NCBI GenBank assembly: GCA_029210545.1 | Contig: JARGFV010000118.1 | Location: forward strand, 1-7,311 | Direction of reading: 5' to 3' | Origin: a bacterium | GTDB taxonomy: Bacteria > BMS3Abin14 | DNA length: 7,311 bases | Part shown: positions 1,593 to 7,311 of the stretch, in pieces | How positions within the stretch are numbered: the first letter of the stretch is position 1 | Layout: each line of letters starts with the position of its first letter | Program-made: the position numbers and the translations under genes | The notes under the pieces: model-generated | Databases searched by the model: none | Told to the model about the DNA's origin: nothing | Seen by the model: only the letters and a program-made list of their open reading frames with translations

Positions 1593-1627
1593 ATTCCATA
1601 TTCCAGATGCCGGATGCCGAATCCTTG
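1593..1627. repeat. Tandem heptamer array A (about five units, ATNCC-type)
   Basis: Five consecutive 7-base units begin at 1593, 1600, 1607, 1614 and 1621. The first four fit ATKCCRN (for example ATTCCAT, ATGCCGG) and the fifth is degraded. Adjacent units match at 20 of 28 positions by hand count. The array starts immediately after the stop-codon hairpin of paaK. I see no coding sense in it. Confidence 0.6.
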
Positions 1628-1693
1628 GGAACACTATACAAAATCGGGAAATAGGTAGTGTAACTCATCGAAAAATATTTTATATTGTGTTCT

Positions 1694-1728
1694 AAACTCA
1701 AAACCTGAAACTCAAAACTCAAAACTAT
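1694..1728. repeat. Tandem heptamer array B (five units, AAACTCA-type)
   Basis: Five contiguous 7-base units begin at 1694, 1701, 1708, 1715 and 1722, all starting with AAAC; units one, three and four are AAACTCA. Adjacent units match at 20 of 28 positions. The array ends 6 nt before the G-run that serves the ACT gene as ribosome binding site. The sequence differs from array A but the period is the same. The intervening AT-rich stretch (about 1634-1693) could hold a promoter, but I see no pair of boxes good enough to call. Confidence 0.65.
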
Positions 1729-1744
1729 TTTTTTGGGGGTTGTT

Positions 1745-2170
1745 ATGAAAGTTGAGCAGATCTCGGTATTTATGGAGAACAAGACCGGCCGCCTGGCACA
1801 GATCACCAGGGTCCTGGGAGAGGCCGGTGTGAACATCCTGGCCCTGTCCCTTGCCGACACGGCCGACTTCGGCATTTTACGGATCATCGTTTCCGACAAC
1901 GACAAGGCCCATGCTGCCCTGAAGGCGGAAGGCTTCACTGTGGGCCGGAACGACGTCCTGGCCATCGATGTTCCTGACAGGCCTGGCGGATTGGCCGACT
2001 TTCTCGAGATCCTCAAGGTCAACGAGATCAATATCGAATACATGTACGCCTACAGGAAGTCCGGGCACGCGCTCCTCATCTTCAGGTTCGACGACCTGGA
2101 CAAGGCCATGGAGATCCTGCCCCGCGCCAACTTCAAGGTTCTATCCGCCGAGGAACTTTACGCGCTCTGA
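1745..2170 (+). CDS. Tandem ACT-domain protein (probable amino-acid-sensing regulator)
   Basis: This is a 141-residue soluble protein made of two ACT modules, about residues 3-66 and 71-135, and nothing else. Each has the expected beta-alpha turn where effectors bind: KTGRLAQITRVLGEAGVNI (13-31) in the first and RPGGLADFLEILKVNEINI (79-97) in the second. ACT modules bind small ligands, usually amino acids, at dimer interfaces. Free-standing tandem ACT proteins of this kind (COG4747-like by recollection) are found beside phenylacetate-CoA ligase and indolepyruvate ferredoxin oxidoreductase genes in anaerobes. No DNA-binding or catalytic domain is visible, so any regulatory effect probably works through a protein partner, perhaps the ligase; that is inference. 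ATG 1745 was chosen because GGGGG at 1735-1739 gives a ribosome binding site with 5-nt spacing. The in-frame TTG at 1733 would absorb that site. Confidence 0.88.
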   Translation: MKVEQISVFMENKTGRLAQITRVLGEAGVNILALSLADTADFGILRIIVSDNDKAHAALKAEGFTVGRNDVLAIDVPDRPGGLADFLEILKVNEINIEYMYAYRKSGHALLIFRFDDLDKAMEILPRANFKVLSAEELYAL

Positions 2171-2179
2171 ACTCATGCG

Positions 2180-2201
2180 CACGGCACAATTCATGTGCGT
2201 G
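2180..2201 (+). other. Small hairpin in the ACT-livK spacer
   Basis: The stem is 8 bp with one bulged G: 2180-2182 and 2184-2188 pair with 2194-2201 around a 5-nt loop. It lies 57 nt before the livK ATG and just after the ACT stop codon. There is no U-tract, so I do not call it a terminator. It could be an operator or a processing site, or chance. The rest of the 87-nt spacer is unremarkable apart from the livK ribosome binding site. Confidence 0.3.
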
Positions 2202-2240
2202 GCCGTCAGCAGCGTTTTCCGCATGAACGTAACCCGGGGG

Positions 2241-2252
2241 GGAGAGGAGAAG
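2241..2252 (+). promoter_or_regulatory. Ribosome binding site of livK
   Basis: The purine run GGAGAGGAGAAG contains AGGAG at 2245-2249, 8 nt before ATG 2258. It sets the start there, not at an upstream GTG at 2195 that would put 21 non-signal residues before the signal peptide. Confidence 0.8.
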
Positions 2253-2257
2253 TTAAA

Positions 2258-3412
2258 ATGAAACGACTTGTGGTAGTTGCCATGGTCATGGGAATGGTCC
2301 TGACTTTCGCTTCAACGGCACCGGCGGCCGATGAGTACAGGATCGGTGCCATATATGCGTCGACGGGGCCTGCCTCAGCGCTGGGCCTTCCGGAGAAAAA
2401 CACTACCGAGATGCTCGTGGAAGAGCTTAACGCGGCCGGCGGGATCAACGGGAAGCAGGTCAAGCTGTTCATGTATGACACCGAGGCGGACCCCACCAAG
2501 GCCAACAACGCGGTGAAAAAGCTCATCAGCCTGGACGAGGTGGACGTGATCATCGGCCCGACGACGTCGGGGGTCACCATGGCCATCATCCCCCCCATCG
2601 AGAAGGCAAAGATCCCCCTGATCTCATGCGCCGCTTCGGTGAAGATCGTGCAGCCTGTGAAGAAATGGGTCTTCAAGACACCACAGACGGACACGATGGC
2701 AGTGGAGAAGATCTACGCGACGCTCCAGAGCAAGGGTATCAGGAAGGTCTCCATCATCACCGTCAGCGACGGCTACGGTGACTCCGGGCGCGTGGAGCTG
2801 CAGAGACTGGCCCCCGACTACGGTCTCACCGTTGTCGCGGATGAGAGGTACGGCGGTAATGACACCGACATGAGCGCCCAACTCACCAAGATCAAGGGCA
2901 CCGATGCCGAGGCCATCGTTTGTTGGGGAACCTTCCCCGGCCCGGCCGTGATCGCCAAGAACAGGAAACAGCTGGGGCTGACCATCCCGCTCTACAACAG
3001 CCACGGCATCGCCTCTCCCAAGTATATTGAACTTGCGGGCGACGCGGCGGAAGGGACGTTCCTGCCCGCGGGCAGGCTCATCGTCATCGACAGCCTCCCG
3101 GATTCCGATCCCCAGAAATCGGTGCTTTCCGCGTACAAGGCGGCGTACGAGGGGAAATTCGGCAAGAATTCCGTCAGCACCTTCGGCGGCCACGCTTACG
3201 ACGCCTTCAAGATCGCCGTCATGGCCATTGAGAACGCCGCCAAGGCGGGGGACGTTACCCGGGCCGGCATCCGTGACGAGATCGAGAAGATCACCGGGTT
3301 CGTCGGGACCGGCGGCATCTTCAACTACTCAGCCGAGGACCACAACGGCCTGACCAAGGAAGGGTTCGGAATGGTCGAGATCAAGAACGGCGGCTGGAGC
3401 CTGGCGCAATAG
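2258..3412 (+). CDS. livK: Periplasmic substrate-binding protein of a Liv/HAAT-type ABC importer, resembling the aromatic-acid-binding RPA1789 group
   Basis: The 384-residue precursor has a cleavable signal peptide: positive MKR, hydrophobic core to about residue 18, and a STAPAA cleavage region ending near residue 23 or 24. It lacks a lipobox cysteine, so it should be free in the periplasm. The mature part is a two-lobe type 1 periplasmic binding protein (YRIGAIYASTGPAS at 27-40, IIGPTTSG at 98-105, SDGYGDSGR at 170-178, GHAYDAF at 311-317). Several segments recall the Rhodopseudomonas RPA1789/CouP-like binding proteins for phenylpropanoid acids: KKWVFKTPQTD (135-145), ADERYGGNDTDM (194-205), LPDSDPQK (280-287) and GFVGTGGIFNYSAEDHNGL (347-365). 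A classical leucine-isoleucine-valine ligand is therefore less certain than the annotation suggests. The gene ends 67 nt before a strong terminator, so it may be expressed above the permease genes, as binding proteins often are. Confidence 0.9.
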   Translation: MKRLVVVAMVMGMVLTFASTAPAADEYRIGAIYASTGPASALGLPEKNTTEMLVEELNAAGGINGKQVKLFMYDTEADPTKANNAVKKLISLDEVDVIIGPTTSGVTMAIIPPIEKAKIPLISCAASVKIVQPVKKWVFKTPQTDTMAVEKIYATLQSKGIRKVSIITVSDGYGDSGRVELQRLAPDYGLTVVADERYGGNDTDMSAQLTKIKGTDAEAIVCWGTFPGPAVIAKNRKQLGLTIPLYNSHGIASPKYIELAGDAAEGTFLPAGRLIVIDSLPDSDPQKSVLSAYKAAYEGKFGKNSVSTFGGHAYDAFKIAVMAIENAAKAGDVTRAGIRDEIEKITGFVGTGGIFNYSAEDHNGLTKEGFGMVEIKNGGWSLAQ

Positions 3413-3414
3413 AA

Positions 3415-3437
3415 AGTGCAGGGTGCAGTGTATGCAG
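3415..3437. repeat. Short heptamer array C (AGTGCAG-type)
   Basis: Two contiguous heptamers, AGTGCAG and GGTGCAG (3415-3428), are followed by a 9-base variant ending TGCAG (3429-3437). Further TGCAG appears at 3451-3455. It begins two bases after the livK stop codon. It is shorter and weaker than the other arrays and could be chance if taken alone. Confidence 0.35.
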
Positions 3438-3479
3438 GGTTAGGATCAGTTGCAGGAATCTGTGCCCGTTAATACTTCA

Positions 3480-3508
3480 GGGGGCCGATTTACGGCCCCC
3501 TTTTCCTT
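3480..3508 (+). terminator. Rho-independent terminator between livK and livH
   Basis: GGGGGCCG (3480-3487) pairs perfectly with CGGCCCCC (3493-3500) over 8 G+C-rich base pairs with a 5-nt loop ATTTA. TTTTCCTT follows directly. This is a textbook intrinsic terminator on the + strand. It should end or reduce the livK transcript before livHMGF, giving more binding protein than membrane complex, or requiring read-through or a separate promoter for livH. Confidence 0.85.
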
Positions 3509-3525
3509 GAACCTGTCTTCGACCT

Positions 3526-3550
3526 TAACTCTTCAACGTGGCAAGAGTTA
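3526..3550. promoter_or_regulatory. Perfect inverted repeat TAACTCTT-N9-AAGAGTTA (possible operator)
   Basis: TAACTCTT (3526-3533) and AAGAGTTA (3543-3550) are exact inverted copies separated by 9 nt, placed after the livK terminator and upstream of livH. The arm and spacer lengths would suit a dimeric repressor spanning about two helical turns, or an RNA hairpin. No promoter boxes are clear beside it. The regulatory role is inference. Confidence 0.4.
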
Positions 3551-3591
3551 GACAGTTGCTTGTCCCCGTTGGACTTCGGCCTTTTTGCCCA

Positions 3592-3666
3592 CCGACCTGT
3601 CACCCATAGCTCCTGACCTTCGGAGCTTTAGCGTAGGAGGTTTATGCGAAGGGTGAAGCTGGTCGG
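3592..3666. repeat. Large imperfect inverted repeat upstream of livH
   Basis: Nested pairing is visible: CCGACC (3592-3597) with GGTCGG (3661-3666), CACCC (3601-3605) with GGGTG (3651-3655), and an inner hairpin AGCTCC (3608-3613) with GGAGCT (3622-3627) around an 8-nt loop. The CCATAGCT core (3604-3611) is the reverse complement of AGCTATGG at 25-32, marking both as members of one dispersed family. The right half contains AGGAGG and an ATG, giving the element a possible translation role. Confidence 0.5.
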
Positions 3667-3706
3667 AAGCTGTCAGCGAAGGTGGATGGACTTTGGACTG
3701 ATTTAA
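3644..3706 (+). CDS. Possible 20-codon leader peptide coupled to livH
   Basis: ATG at 3644 follows a perfect AGGAGG (3635-3640), though the 3-nt spacing is shorter than ideal. The frame runs 20 codons, starting MRRVKLVG and ending DFGLI, to TAA at 3704-3706, two bases before the preferred livH ATG at 3709. Since livH lacks a strong ribosome binding site at 3709, translation of this mini-frame could deliver ribosomes to livH by coupling. Most of it lies within a repeat-like palindrome, so it may be fortuitous. The peptide has no run of a regulatory amino acid, so classical attenuation is not indicated. Confidence 0.25.
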   Translation: MRRVKLVGSCQRRWMDFGLI

Positions 3707-3708
3707 AT

Positions 3709-4590
3709 ATGGGCCTCGAACAGATACTTCAATTCGTTATTACCGGGATCACGGTGGGCAGTACCTATGCGCTCATCGGGATCGGTTTTAACATCATCTT
3801 TAACGCCACCGAGATCATCAACTTCGCCCAGGGCGAGTTTGTCATGCTCGGCGGGATGTTCACCGTGTTCGGGATGCAGGTGCTGCGCCTGCCGGTGCCG
3901 TTCGCGGCCCTGCTGTCTATCATCCTGGTGGCGTTCGTGGGGCTGCTTCTCAACATGCTCGCCATCAGGCCCATCAGGAACCCCAGCCCCATCACCCTGA
4001 TCATCATCACGATCGGGGCCTCCATCTTCATCCGGGGCGCTTCCAGCCTCATCTGGGGCAAGGACCCCTATCCCATCGCTGCCTTCAGCGGTGAAGACCC
4101 TATCCCGTTCTTCGGGGCGGTCATCCAGCCGCAGAGCCTGTGGGTCATGGGCGTGGTGTTTGCCGTGGTGGTGGCCCTGAGACAGTTCCTGAACCGCACC
4201 ATCACCGGGAAGGCGATGCTGGCCTCGGCGTTCCAGCCCCGGGCGGCCCGGCTGGTGGGGATCGACACCCCCTACATGGTGCTGCTTTCCTTCGCCCTGT
4301 CCGGGGCTGTGGGGGCAGCAGCAGGTATCATCATCGCGCCCATGAGCATGGTGACCTACGACATGGGCGTCATGATGGGATTGAAAGGTTTTTGCGCCGC
4401 TATCGTCGGAGGGCTCGGACATCCCTTCGGGGTGGTCCTGGGTGGGCTGATACTGGGGGTCATGGAGTCCCTTGGCGCGGGTCTCATCTCCAGCGGGTAC
4501 AAGGATGCCATCGCCTTCGTGATCCTGCTCCTCATGCTGTTCTTCCGGCCCCAGGGTATCCTGGGCAAGGGCCGGGGGGAGCGGGTGTGA
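3709..4590 (+). CDS. livH: Branched-chain/aromatic acid ABC transporter permease, LivH type
   Basis: This is a 293-residue inner-membrane permease that pairs with LivM to form the translocation channel. It is mostly hydrophobic, with about eight membrane segments. Family hallmarks: GSTYALIGIGFNIIF (17-31), ATEIINFAQGEFVMLGG (33-49), the cytoplasmic stretch TGKAMLASAFQPRAARLVGID (166-186), the LKGFCAAIVGGLG motif (225-237), which corresponds to the ATPase-contact region, and the C-terminal FFRPQGILG (278-286). I chose ATG 3709 because MGLEQILQF is the usual LivH beginning. A GTG at 3682 would add nine residues (MDGLWTDLN) and has no usable ribosome binding site. ATG 3709 itself has only a weak GGA at 3695-3697, so coupling to the mini-frame 3644-3706 is possible. 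Its last bases overlap the livM start. Translocated substrate is set mainly by the binding protein and is unproven. Confidence 0.92.
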   Translation: MGLEQILQFVITGITVGSTYALIGIGFNIIFNATEIINFAQGEFVMLGGMFTVFGMQVLRLPVPFAALLSIILVAFVGLLLNMLAIRPIRNPSPITLIIITIGASIFIRGASSLIWGKDPYPIAAFSGEDPIPFFGAVIQPQSLWVMGVVFAVVVALRQFLNRTITGKAMLASAFQPRAARLVGIDTPYMVLLSFALSGAVGAAAGIIIAPMSMVTYDMGVMMGLKGFCAAIVGGLGHPFGVVLGGLILGVMESLGAGLISSGYKDAIAFVILLLMLFFRPQGILGKGRGERV

Positions 4591-5588
4591 AGCTGCTCCG
4601 GTTCATACTGGACCCATATGCCAGGTTTGCGTTATTCGCCCTCCTGATCATGGGATTACCCCTGGTGGTCACCAACGAATACTACCTGGGGGTGCTGGTG
4701 GTCATTGCCATCCACTCCATCATCGTCCTCGGACTGGACCTTCTGATGGGCTACACGGGGCAGATCTCCCTGGGGCACGCCTCGTTCTACGGGCTGGGGG
4801 CATACATTACCGGCGTTCTCTCCGCCCATTGGCAGTGGCCGCCCCTGGCCGGCCTGGCAGCGGCCCTCCTCATCGTGGCAGCCATCGCCTGGATCATCGG
4901 AGTGCCCACTCTCAAGCTCCACGGACATTACCTGGCTATGGCGACCCTGGGTTTCGGGATCATCGTCTTCATCTTTTTCAACGAACTGGGGAGTCTCACC
5001 GGCGGTCCTTCCGGGCTCACCGGGATCGAGGAGATGAACATCTTCGGCGTGACCTTCGACTCGGACAGGGAATGGTATTTCCTGTCCGTATCGTTCCTCC
5101 TCGCGGTGCTTCTGCTCTCCATCAACGTGGTCCGGTCCAGGGTGGGCAGGGCGCTTCGGGCGATCCACGGTTCGGAGACCGCTTCCGGTGTTCTCGGTGT
5201 CAACATCGCGAGGTACAAGGTGGGGATCTTCGTCCTGTCGGCCCTCTATGCGGCCCTCGCCGGATGGCTTTACGCCCACTACATCACCTTTATCAGCCCG
5301 AGCTCCTTTACCTTCATGTTCTCCGTGAAGCTGGTCACCATGGTGGTTGCCGGCAGCCTTGGCAGCCTTTGGGGGGCCATCTTCGGGGCGGCGCTGCTCA
5401 CCAGCCTGCCCGAGTTCCTGTTTGTGTTCAACAACTACGAAACGCTGGTATTCGGCTTCATCCTCATCGTTGTGATGATCTTCATGCCTAGGGGGCTGCT
5501 GCGCGGCATCGAGGATATGTTCAAGTGGCTGTGGCACGCTGCCCGGAAAGCTCCCCCAACCTCCAGGCCCGGGGAGGAACGCTCGTGA
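4587..5588 (+). CDS. livM: Branched-chain/aromatic acid ABC transporter permease, LivM type
   Basis: This 333-residue second membrane subunit of the importer has hydrophobic segments throughout. Hallmarks: GYTGQISLGHASFYGLGAY (55-73), the classic LivM signature; PTLKLHGHYLAMATLGFG (107-124); the cytoplasmic coupling stretch GRALRAIHGSETASGVLGVN (187-206); MVVAGSLGSLWGA (252-264); and the terminal PRGL (301-304). The start is GTG 4587, whose bases overlap the livH TGA in a GTGA junction. GGGGGAG at 4575-4581 supplies the ribosome binding site with 5-nt spacing. The same frame is open far upstream within livH, but that extension is a shadow of livH. The hydrophilic tail after residue 310 is ordinary for the family. 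The tight overlap implies translational coupling and equal amounts of LivH and LivM. Confidence 0.93.
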   Translation: MKLLRFILDPYARFALFALLIMGLPLVVTNEYYLGVLVVIAIHSIIVLGLDLLMGYTGQISLGHASFYGLGAYITGVLSAHWQWPPLAGLAAALLIVAAIAWIIGVPTLKLHGHYLAMATLGFGIIVFIFFNELGSLTGGPSGLTGIEEMNIFGVTFDSDREWYFLSVSFLLAVLLLSINVVRSRVGRALRAIHGSETASGVLGVNIARYKVGIFVLSALYAALAGWLYAHYITFISPSSFTFMFSVKLVTMVVAGSLGSLWGAIFGAALLTSLPEFLFVFNNYETLVFGFILIVVMIFMPRGLLRGIEDMFKWLWHAARKAPPTSRPGEERS

Positions 5589-6346
5589 GCGCGCTCATGG
5601 AAACAAGGGGGCTTTGCCGGTATTTCGGGGGCGTACGGGCTATCCAGGAGTTGGATTTCGAGGTCCGCGAGGGGCTTATCCAGTCGGTCATCGGGCCCAA
5701 CGGGGCCGGCAAGACCACCCTGTTCAACGTGGTTTCGGGTATCCTTCCTCCGACATCGGGGGAGGTTTTCTTTAACGGTGCGCCCATCACCAGGCTGGCT
5801 CCTCACCGGATTGCGTCCATGGGTGTGACCCGCACCTTCCAGAACCTGCAGCTTTTTTCCGACATGACGGTTCTGGAAAACGTTATGGTTGGGATGCATC
5901 TGAGATCCCGGGGAGGCTTTTTCGCCTCGGCGTTCAAACCGCCATGGGTCTGGAAGGAGGAGCGCCGGATCCGGGACAGTTCCATGGAGATCCTGGAGTT
6001 CACAGCTCTTGCGGATTACGCATCGCTGGTGGCCGGGAGCCTGCCCTTCGGACGTCAGCGGGTCCTGGAGATCGCGAGGGGGCTGGCAATGAAACCGGAA
6101 CTCCTCATGCTGGACGAACCGGCCGCCGGTCTGAACATTAGGGAAACGTCCGATCTTTCCGGCCTTATTTCCCGCATCAGGGAACTCGGGATCACCATCC
6201 TCCTGGTGGAGCACGACATGGACCTGGTCATGGCCATTTCCGATCGTGTCACCGTTCTGGACCAGGGACAGAAGATCGCCGAAGGTGACCCCGAGTTCGT
6301 GAGAAACGACGACAAAGTGCTCAAGGCGTATCTGGGAGAAGAGTAA
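5585..6346 (+). CDS. livG: ABC transporter ATPase, LivG type
   Basis: This 253-residue cytoplasmic ATPase pairs with LivF to power the importer. Walker A is GPNGAGKT (37-44) and the Q-loop residue is Gln86 in RTFQNLQLF. The signature region SLPFGRQR (152-159) replaces LSGGQ, in keeping with the LPYGxQR form usual in LivG. Walker B LLMLDEPAAGL (173-183) carries Asp177 and catalytic Glu178, and the switch histidine is His210 in LLVEHDMDLV. The insert around residues 108-130 before the signature is typical of LivG compared with LivF. GTG 5585 was chosen because GGAGG (5573-5577) lies 7 nt ahead and because it reproduces the GTGA overlap seen at livH/livM. An in-frame ATG at 5597 would shorten the protein by four residues, with poor spacing. 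Confidence 0.94.
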   Translation: MSALMETRGLCRYFGGVRAIQELDFEVREGLIQSVIGPNGAGKTTLFNVVSGILPPTSGEVFFNGAPITRLAPHRIASMGVTRTFQNLQLFSDMTVLENVMVGMHLRSRGGFFASAFKPPWVWKEERRIRDSSMEILEFTALADYASLVAGSLPFGRQRVLEIARGLAMKPELLMLDEPAAGLNIRETSDLSGLISRIRELGITILLVEHDMDLVMAISDRVTVLDQGQKIAEGDPEFVRNDDKVLKAYLGEE

Positions 6347-6347
6347 A

Positions 6348-6364
6348 CAGGTCACAGTGACCTG
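6348..6364. promoter_or_regulatory. Perfect 17-bp palindrome after the livG stop codon
   Basis: CAGGTCAC-A-GTGACCTG is an exact dyad of 8-bp arms around one central base, starting two nucleotides after the livG TAA. As DNA it looks like a dimeric-regulator operator. As RNA it could form a 7-bp hairpin with a 3-nt loop, but no U-tract follows. It is the first thing met in the 78-nt livG-livF spacer. Confidence 0.5.
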
Positions 6365-6390
6365 GGGAAAATGATCCCTTACGATCTAAC

Positions 6391-6418
6391 CGTAAACAGT
6401 AAACTGTAAACCGTTAAC
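6391..6418. repeat. Tandem heptamer array D (four NGTAAAC units) upstream of livF
   Basis: Four contiguous heptamers begin at 6391, 6398, 6405 and 6412: CGTAAAC, AGTAAAC, then TGTAAAC and CGTTAAC. Neighbouring units match at 17 of 21 positions. The array ends six bases before the livF ATG and occupies the place where a Shine-Dalgarno would lie. Its last 16 bases recur inverted at 7185-7200 beyond livF, with one difference. Confidence 0.75.
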
Positions 6419-6424
6419 TTCATT

Positions 6425-7162
6425 ATGTTAAAAGTGCGCAACATAACCACATATTACGGCCGGATCCAGGTCCTTCATGGCGTGTCCATCCACGTGGGCG
6501 AGGGGGAGATCGTGGCGCTCATCGGCGCCAACGGCGCCGGAAAAACGACTCTCATCAACGCTGTCAGCGGGATCCTCAAGATCGCCGAGGGAAGTATCAA
6601 GCTGGGTGAAAGGGAGATCGGGAACCTCCCGCCCGAGCGGATCGTCAAGGCCGGGCTATCCCAGGTCCCTGAGGGGAGGCTGATCTTTTCACCCCTGACA
6701 GTGGAGGACAATCTGCGTCTCGGCGCCTACATCCGGTACCGGGCCAGGGAAAAGGAAGAGATCAAGGAGGATCTCGAAAAGATCTACGAACTTTTTCCCG
6801 TACTGCGGCAACGGTCGGAGCAGATGGCAGGGATGCTGAGCGGGGGAGAACAGCAGATGCTGGCCCTGGGCCGCGCTCTCATGGCCAATCCCCGGCTGAT
6901 CCTCCTTGACGAGCCCTCCCTGGGTCTGGCACCCATCATCGCTGCCGGGATCTTCCGCACCATCGCGGGCCTTCGGGACAAGGGCGTGACCGTGCTGCTG
7001 GTGGAGCAGAACGCCCGTGCCGCCCTGGCCCTTGCGGACAGGGGGTATGTCATAGAGACAGGTTCTGTGGTCCTCCAGGACAAGGCCGAGCGGCTCCTGA
7101 GCAACCCGGAAGTCCAGCGGGCCTACCTGGGGAAGGGGAAAAAAGAAATTTGGGATTCCTGA
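6425..7162 (+). CDS. livF: ABC transporter ATPase, LivF type
   Basis: This 245-residue cytoplasmic ATPase is the partner of LivG. Walker A is GANGAGKT (34-41). The Q-loop segment is SQVPEGRLIF (79-88) with Gln80, and the signature is the family form LSGGEQQ (138-144). Walker B LILLDEPSLGL (158-168) has Asp162 and Glu163. The switch position is Gln195 in LLVEQNARAA, as usual for LivF in place of histidine. ATG 6425 gives a family-like N-terminus (MLKVRNITTYYG), but no purine-rich ribosome binding site precedes it, and the in-frame codons upstream reach a TAA at 6407 with no alternative ATG, GTG or TTG. The usual C-terminus around YLG (235-236 region) is followed by a short tail, KGKKEIWDS; its last residues are encoded by one arm of the downstream hairpin. 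It is separated from livG by 78 nt, unlike the overlapping livHMG genes. Confidence 0.93.
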   Translation: MLKVRNITTYYGRIQVLHGVSIHVGEGEIVALIGANGAGKTTLINAVSGILKIAEGSIKLGEREIGNLPPERIVKAGLSQVPEGRLIFSPLTVEDNLRLGAYIRYRAREKEEIKEDLEKIYELFPVLRQRSEQMAGMLSGGEQQMLALGRALMANPRLILLDEPSLGLAPIIAAGIFRTIAGLRDKGVTVLLVEQNARAALALADRGYVIETGSVVLQDKAERLLSNPEVQRAYLGKGKKEIWDS

Positions 7163-7184
7163 TATTCAAGAATCCCAAATTTCT
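7144..7184 (+). repeat. 15-bp hairpin enclosing the livF stop codon in its loop
   Basis: 7144-7158 pairs perfectly with 7170-7184, leaving an 11-nt loop (7159-7169) that contains the TGA stop (7160-7162). The left arm is coding and supplies the unusual KEIWDS end of LivF. No U-tract follows. A heptamer array begins at the last base of the right arm. It may serve as a 3'-end stabiliser or weak terminator, or be a dispersed repeat that overran the gene end. Confidence 0.7.
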
Positions 7185-7211
7185 GTTCACGGTTTACAGT
7201 AGACAGTTCAC
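7184..7211. repeat. Tandem heptamer array E (four NGTNNAC units) downstream of livF
   Basis: Units begin at 7184, 7191, 7198 and 7205 and all fit NGTNNAC (TGTTCAC, GGTTTAC and two more). Adjacent units match at 14 of 21 positions. The stretch 7185-7200 is the reverse complement of 6403-6418 at 15 of 16 positions, so arrays D and E are inverted relatives flanking livF. Confidence 0.6.
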
Positions 7212-7236
7212 AGTCAAAAAGTTTTTTCTGTATACT
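7207..7236 (+). promoter_or_regulatory. Possible sigma-70 promoter reading rightward
   Basis: TTCACA (7207-7212) and TATACT (7231-7236) are separated by 18 nt, with TG just before the second box. The -10 match is fair and the -35 match partial. It would drive a gene beyond the right edge or the hairpin-rich region. AT-rich spacers give such matches by chance, so confidence is low. Confidence 0.25.
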
Positions 7237-7247
7237 TTGATAGAGTC

Positions 7248-7275
7248 GCAAAAAGTCCAATCCGGGACTTTTCGC
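7248..7275. repeat. Imperfect hairpin downstream of livF
   Basis: 7251-7258 pairs with 7265-7272 over 8 bp around a 6-nt loop. After one mismatch (7250/7273), two more pairs extend the stem to 7248/7275. The GTCGCAAAAAGTCC core resembles dispersed hairpins I recall from deltaproteobacterial genomes. No T-run follows the stem. Confidence 0.5.
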
Positions 7276-7280
7276 TCCAC

Positions 7281-7310
7281 GGAAAGGGAAAAGCGTCGTT
7301 TTCCCTTTCC
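7281..7310. terminator. Perfect 12-bp hairpin, possible bidirectional terminator
   Basis: GGAAAGGGAAAA (7281-7292) pairs perfectly with TTTTCCCTTTCC (7299-7310) around the 6-nt loop GCGTCG. The window ends at 7311, so a downstream U-tract cannot be seen. The stem is purine on one strand and pyrimidine on the other. It is the likeliest end of the livHMGF transcript in this window, but may instead be another dispersed palindrome. Confidence 0.45.
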
Positions 7311-7311
7311 T

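Follow-up and report, generated by a model that had tools for sequence, protein, structure and literature searches.

Period-7 arrays in intergenic spacers of a BMS3Abin14 bacterium as probable orphan arms of small S23p elements

PF05635 (Pfam S23p, "23S rRNA-intervening sequence protein"; a four-helix bundle) is a large orphan family whose members are related to Avd, a protein of diversity-generating retroelements; to our knowledge it has no nuclease or recombinase domain. The S23p-encoding 23S rRNA IVS of Coxiella burnetii is ~430 bp long and combines one PF05635-type gene with terminal inverted repeats, with heptamers in tandem at the 5' end (PMC4990558). REPIN/RAYT systems likewise comprise dispersed inverted doublets of short repeats, singlets alongside them and a single protein gene bounded by ends that match (PMC3116915). 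Tandem heptamers are also described in several other bacteria. The Geobacter metallireducens elements (3-5 tandem heptamers or octamers, often in opposite-strand pairs) were interpreted as sites for regulators or as RNA elements, with no link to S23p in the portion of that paper used here (PMC2700814), and the Xanthomonas GGGAATC heptamers (four units preferred, mainly between genes, 70-75 pairs in inverted orientation per genome) were explained by G-quadruplexes, with S23 not mentioned (PMC4692102). STRR/TAACTGA sequences of cyanobacteria, Beggiatoaceae and Bacteroidetes share the heptamer unit and were reported to lie close to start codons as direct repeats, with one inverted repeat noted (PMC4679880). 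The heptamers of these and other groups have so far received separate explanations (slippage, quadruplexes, regulator sites, translation signals), and no earlier statement of an S23p-heptamer link was found in the searchable literature.

The window, meaning the whole stretch analyzed here (7,311 nucleotides; contig JARGFV010000118.1, assembly GCA_029210545.1; GTDB lineage Bacteria; BMS3Abin14), carries arrays that are likely to be orphan arms, that is, terminal inverted repeats of small S23p (IVS-like) selfish elements. Its intergenic DNA showed an excess of matches at lag 7 (z = 5.7), and none of the other lags from 3 to 15 peaked to a similar degree. The first array (1593-1622, plus strand; AT TCCAT AT TCCAG AT GCCGG AT GCCGA AT; 30 bp, five AT steps at a 7-bp pitch) begins 15 bp past the stop of a CoA-ligase gene and gave 19/23 lag-7 matches, equaled by 0 of 2000 spacer shuffles. 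The second (1696-1725, plus strand; AC TCAAA AC CTGAA AC TCAAA AC TCAAA AC; 30 bp, AC steps) lies immediately upstream of an ACT-domain gene (17/23 matches, p 0.002; TRF score 45). Two further arrays belong to the GTTYACN family and flank livF. One (6389-6418, minus strand; plus-strand reading AC CGTAA AC AGTAA AC TGTAA AC CGTTA AC; 30 bp, AC steps) lies 6 bp upstream of the gene, with 19/23 matches and 0/2000 shuffles equal, and the other (7185-7214, plus strand; GT TCACG GT TTACA GT AGACA GT TCACA GT; 30 bp, GT steps) lies 22 bp downstream, with 17/23 matches and p 0.006. All four follow XY(N5XY)4 and measure exactly 30 bp. A weak GTGCAGG-like repeat after livK (3415-3441, plus strand) reached 11/22 matches at p 0.03, which is marginal, and was left out of the arm count. 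The original prediction, that spacers in this stretch hold arrays of one shared period, was thus upheld for four of its five arrays (shuffle p 0 to 0.006).

The same prediction held the arrays to be mostly unrelated in sequence, and this was corrected in part: 6389-6418 and 7185-7214 match at 24/30 positions in inverted orientation, and unit families recur genome-wide, with 81 three-unit matches to GTTYACN in the genome and 0 to the reversed pattern. A reading in which this inverted pair brackets livF as a cassette was rejected, as bracketing of whole genes was without support genome-wide: 0/64 adjacent pairs across one gene reached an inverted-match score of 12 (2.8 expected). Inverted pairing was specific to arrays within the same spacer, and the pair around livF is therefore best taken as two arrays from the most abundant family. 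No S23p gene or inverted partner was detected for any of the four arrays in the flanks searched; the partner of 7185-7214 could lie off the contig, which ends 97 bp further on. No Rfam family was matched within the window. All of these arrays sit in spacers of protein genes and not inside a 23S rRNA gene.

Arrays were then counted in 1.48 Mb of the window's own genome and in shuffled spacers. Period 7 gave 307 intergenic arrays against 1.3 in shuffles, followed by period 8 (96 against 0.7); periods 5, 6 and 9 gave 3, 9 and 20 intergenic arrays, respectively. The excess of lag 7 over neighboring periods that had been anticipated is therefore present genome-wide. Among spacers of at least 60 bp, 249/821 contained an array and none did after shuffling, and array density was 1.31 per kb between genes against 0.027 per kb inside them (~48-fold). 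The earlier remark that no array lies inside a gene was nearly right, with 34/364 arrays found inside predicted genes. Arrays were enriched at gene 3' ends, a check proposed earlier (141 within 30 bp against 81 expected), but 5' ends were crowded too (94 against 70). Dozens of unit families recur in this single genome. Degenerate tandem heptamers between genes, the form by which STRR sequences are recognized, are present here, but this feature is common to all of the explanations weighed.

A typical array measures exactly 30 bp and has five equal steps, XY(N5XY)4, and octad arrays peak at 34 bp. The length peak is sharp at 4P+2 for both periods, the one at P = 8 resting on a smaller number of arrays. 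Variability within the unit is concentrated at particular phases, and unit-to-unit identity falls with distance from 0.85 to 0.62. An inverted partner was present within 250 bp of 44% of arrays (background 9.5%), and terminal inverted repeats were found both genome-wide and around S23p genes. Two parts of the original prediction were upheld, namely a single common process behind arrays of differing sequence and spacing as the constrained property. A third part, slippage as a possible origin, was not supported. Replication slippage favored at 7 bp (e.g., by a polymerase footprint), with each array growing from local sequence, would give neighbor copying and hence the falling unit identity; many bacteria carry heptamers in excess, and slippage tied to the polymerase footprint has been put forward (PMC4692102). 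A simple sequence repeat is nevertheless expected to have no preferred size, and slippage leaves unpredicted the 4P+2 length at two periods, the recurrent families, the phase-restricted variation, the placement of arrays around S23p genes and the co-variation of protein and arm (below), while inverted partners strain it further; it is considered very unlikely. Long perfect arrays, e.g., in genome G003, may nonetheless be lengthened by slippage.

Flanks of PF05635 genes from many phyla were scored for inverted arms, mostly heptad or octad arrays. Significant inverted flanks were present at 48/66 genes and absent from 18/66, compared with 1.3-2.7% of control windows; the arms at these 48 genes enclose an S23p gene, whereas the four window arrays are single arms. 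The window's own genome has nine PF05635 genes, six of which have inverted flanks scoring at least 15, a level that roughly 99% of control windows do not reach. Taking own, family and unrelated genomes together, 24/36 genes had inverted flanks, a set mostly free of the selection that applies to the next one: in 28 array-bearing genomes found by pattern scan, 24/30 genes were flanked (median 23), and these 30 do not sample S23p genes at random because their genomes were picked for GTTYAC arrays. Arm period among 49 flanked genes was 7 in 35 and 8 in 8, with no clear period in a few. Arms co-vary with the protein in both period and sequence: arms of period 8 group together on the S23p tree (4 changes against 7.6 shuffled, 0/500), and proteins of higher identity tend to have more similar arm units (Mantel r 0.23, 0/500 permutations). 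In a comparison of 28 genomes, arrays were commoner where PF05635 was present (median 21 against 0 per 100 kb, p 0.006), with some bias in that three S23p-positive stretches contain the S23p gene. In several S23p-bearing genomes the 20-kb sample contained no array, and ~10 arrays per 100 kb occur in two relatives that lack S23p. A profile search of the 1.48 Mb returned only two intact S23p genes and no further fragments; tblastn on the same genome returned one additional decayed copy.

Presence and absence of elements were compared between orthologous spacers. Genome G008 has a 642-bp S23p element that the orthologous spacers of G000, G001, G003 and G011 lack, a comparison detailed at one locus and at cross-species distance, in spacers that differ otherwise too. 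Decay to an orphan arm was seen once: an orphan array in the genome of the window lies next to a decayed S23p fragment whose orthologs persist as elements in G008 and G003. A search for target-site duplications gave none. Insertion into hairpin loops or terminators, an idea from the G011 spacer, was rejected, the outer flanks of 71 elements being no more palindromic than shuffled pairs.

Retention of the arrays as host regulator sites or RNA elements, for control of transcription or translation, would fit their position hugging gene ends, the reading of paired opposite-strand heptamer and octamer sites as global regulator sites in G. metallireducens (PMC2700814) and the interpretation of TAACTGA repeats as translational sites (PMC4679880). 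Dozens of unit families per genome, presence and absence at orthologous spacers and bracketing of S23p genes speak against host control, which is judged very unlikely. Arm mismatches showed no G-U bias on the sense strand of the gene (64 against 66 for the antisense equivalent), which also counts against control through RNA pairing. Pairing of the arms as RNA is therefore not evidently selected, and selection on the RNA strand was rejected on the same counts.

Elements of REP/REPIN type, mobilized by Y1 (RAYT) transposases, share in principle the layout of dispersed inverted doublets, decaying singlets and a single protein gene whose ends match (PMC3116915), and over-represented inverted doublets with singlets as remnants were found here. 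This genome has, however, only two Y1_Tnp genes, and although 14/25 Y1 genes have inverted flanks, few of the arms tested are heptad or octad arrays, which does not fit a cognate Y1 transposase with matching ends; movement by Y1 enzymes is most improbable. The best reading by analogy would be a REPIN/RAYT-like arrangement built on a protein without a known transposase domain, differing in that S23p is a four-helix bundle instead of a tyrosine transposase and that the arm is itself a tandem array. Compared with the Coxiella IVS, the elements here are placed in protein-gene spacers, have regular five-step arms and are in most copies gene-less or single-armed.

In the favored S23p-element reading, a full element would consist of an arm, an S23p gene and an inverted arm (about 410-640 bp), and short forms of an arm, a non-coding core and an inverted arm; single arrays of the window type would be remnants whose partner was lost or is unrecognizable. 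Each arm has five dinucleotide steps at a 7-bp pitch (30 bp) or, in some S23p subfamilies, an 8-bp pitch (34 bp). An S23p oligomer, probably a pentamer, may bind the arm with one contact per step, in which case spacing, not sequence, would be the common constraint, and unit sequence would differ between elements because each S23p lineage recognizes its own. Such binding would be needed for spread, with help from other enzymes. Tentatively, and with somewhat less than even confidence, S23p may be the spacing- and sequence-reading core of a widespread, unnamed mobility system without a known transposase domain: a putative homopentamer would read the five steps of each arm with a lineage-own unit and a 7- or 8-bp pitch, and spread itself and a larger gene-less hairpin population through bacterial spacers and between phyla, many unexplained heptamers being its footprints. 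If the S23p link is true, several unexplained repeat families would gain a common origin, debris of one selfish-element class would lie in about 30% of this genome's spacers, and PF05635 would gain a likely nucleic-acid partner readable straight from gene flanks. Biochemically, the prediction is that S23p gauges how five steps are spaced, with a pitch of 7 or 8 bp.

In favor of this reading, the solved S23p relatives 2gsc and 2rld each have five chains per entry; PDB 2gsc is the structure of XCC0516, which is related to the S23p examined in this work. The resemblance to cyanobacterial STRR sequences, originally proposed as one of form, may go beyond it: an S23p element of Microcystis has arms of TCAGTTA, the reverse complement of the TAACTGA unit.

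The 7,311-bp window contig comes from a draft genome of 2.72 Mb and carries genes for a CoA ligase and an ACT-domain protein, as well as an operon (livK, livH, livM, livG, livF) for a branched-chain amino acid transporter. When re-measured, four spacer arrays (1593-1622, 1696-1725, 6389-6418 and 7185-7214) proved real and had a common anatomy, XY(N5XY)4, in which a dinucleotide XY occurs five times in 7-bp steps over exactly 30 bp (shuffle p = 0 to 0.006); the array at 3415 was marginal. A separate inverted repeat at 1629-1692, GAACACTATACAAAAT (1629-1644) / ATTTTATATTGTGTTC (1677-1692), sits between heptad arrays of two different families.

Arrays were counted over 1.48 Mb of the window's own genome, with expectations taken from dinucleotide shuffles. 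The original observation of a shared 7-bp period held up in the proposed genome-wide check against shuffled spacers: 307 intergenic period-7 arrays were found vs 1.3 in shuffles. Period 8 gave 96 vs 0.7, the remaining periods from 2 to 13 gave 3 to 20 arrays each, and arrays at periods 14, 16 and 21 were mostly multiples. Arrays were carried by 249 of 821 spacers, at 1.31 per kb in spacers vs 0.027 per kb within genes. Modal length was 30 bp at period 7 (69 arrays vs ~20 at adjacent lengths) and 34 bp at period 8 (11 vs ~5), which is four periods plus 2 bp at both. Variation was gathered in certain unit phases: the top phase held 477 of 944 mismatches, against an expected 352 +/- 7.

Neighbouring arrays in the same spacer were inverted copies at score >= 12 in 30 of 89 pairs, vs 3.8 expected, and in 0 of 64 pairs with one gene between. 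An inverted partner lay within 250 bp (score 10) of 44% of single arrays vs 9.5% around other arrays; direct matches in the same search reached 21%. Short complete elements were found, such as L055 11365-11436 (30-bp arm, 12-bp loop, 30-bp inverted arm), whose arms have relatives elsewhere in the genome with other loops and flanks. Purine-rich arrays lay at the left spacer edge and pyrimidine-rich arrays at the right edge, with a matching orientation bias in the GTTYAC family (16 and 6 vs 6 and 16, p 0.006). In the window (6389-7214), livF stands between two arms of the GTTYAC family that are inverted and 766 bp apart; livF and these arms are probably not a cassette, because the arms point away from the gene under the orientation rule found elsewhere. 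One Prevotella contig (L209 5880-7384) holds a short element twice, with GTTTAC arms, a similar core with GTGGCTTGCACGG and different flanks; related arms occur in L113 and L207. A further spacer family of the own genome comprises GTCATTGCGAG...GAAGCAATCT-like dispersed repeats (L101 9730-9898 and L067 15005-15339), and GTCATTGCGAAGC, near window 215, is similar to their start.

In other phyla, the gene enclosed by long inverted pairs resembled a four-helix-bundle S23p protein, and Pfam PF05635 was then used to test the S23p identity of enclosed genes. Of nine PF05635 genes in the own genome, six have significant inverted flanks. Flank scores >= 15 were reached by 24 of 36 PF05635 genes sampled in the own genome, in its family and in unrelated genomes, and by 24 of 30 from 28 further genomes of many phyla in which a GTTYAC scan had found arrays; control windows reached the threshold in 1.3-2.7%. 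Among 49 flanked S23p genes, arm period was 7 in 35, 8 in eight, 9 in one and 6 in one, with no clear period in four. Most elements measured 410-640 bp arm to arm. The element consists of two inverted arms, with a preferred five-step layout, around an S23p gene or a short core. Y1 transposase genes, a control family, had inverted flanks in 14 of 25 cases, as expected from RAYTs; unlike those of S23p, their arms carried heptads or octads in a minority only. Octad arrays, second commonest genome-wide, are the arms on certain S23p branches (L062 4450-5096; L255; L297). Genome G019 gave 19 PF05635 matches, many being opposite-strand pairs no more than a few hundred bases apart (e.g., contig C7 104028-104554), unlike the others.

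Elements were absent or decayed at orthologous sites. In genome G008, element L263, which spans 642 bp from one arm to the other, is flanked by a start codon and a conserved promoter-like block. At this position the orthologous spacers have ~54 bp in G003 and in the own genome, G000, vs ~696, and that of G011 holds a different heptad pair. At a second locus the element is kept in G008 and G003, the G003 copy being broken by another repeat, and G000 retains an S23p gene fragment and one heptad array, nothing more. This is a direct example of a route by which window-type orphan arrays can arise. The arrays are likely orphan arms of S23p elements; as no S23p gene or inverted partner is left beside the window arrays, this reading of them depends on their identical anatomy and on their genome context. 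A dispersed repeat at window 7227-7311 starts near TTTGATAGAGTCGCAAAAAGTCC and ends AAAGCGTCGTTTTCCCTTTCC; similar blocks occur in other spacers, and one breaks the S23p gene of G003 (L326).

S23p pairs above 60% identity always had a common period, and those below 30% did in about half. Protein identity followed unit similarity (Mantel r 0.23, a value reached in 0 of 500 permutations), and period 8 required four changes on the S23p tree vs 7.6 in shuffles. The correlation is support for recognition of the arm by S23p, not proof, since shared ancestry of gene and arms would give it too. Transfer between phyla is indicated by S23p proteins ~65-75% identical, with closely related heptads, that occurred in G001 and in genomes of a Scytonema, a member of the Chloroflexi and one of the Victivallales. 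Matches listed in a scan for four GTTYACN units included Bacteroidales, Cyanobacteria, Chloroflexi, Acidobacteria, Nitrospirae, Desulfobacterales, Zixibacteria and others. Across 28 genomes, median period-7 density was 21 per 100 kb with PF05635 present and 0 with it absent (Spearman 0.51, p 0.005), with exceptions in both directions.

The arms may be bound by an S23p oligomer. The entries for the solved S23p relatives 2gsc and 2rld each contain five chains, which suggests, and does not prove, that they are pentameric; an arm of five steps, at either pitch, fits one contact per subunit. Because we know of no nuclease domain in PF05635, our guess is that movement could be helped by host enzymes or a reverse transcriptase. 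Avd, a protein of diversity-generating retroelements, is pentameric and acts together with a reverse transcriptase. PF05635 and Avd are likely homologous (PMC10053308). Arm mismatches gave no indication that RNA pairing is under selection, the two wobble types being equally frequent.

Intervening sequences of 23S rRNA encode S23p and are bounded by terminal inverted repeats; those of Coxiella also have tandem heptamers adjoining the gene (PMC4990558). In the literature searched, largely without subscription papers and preprints, no statement of the repeat-S23p link was found, and priority is uncertain. Heptamers and octamers in opposite-strand pairs, like the arrays here, are described from G. 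metallireducens (PMC2700814); the Xanthomonas GGGAATC repeats (PMC4692102), with four units and inverted pairs, and the TAACTGA repeats (PMC4679880) are likewise similar. All three look like the same thing recorded separately, and the present data touch the TAACTGA repeats only, through the S23p element L308.
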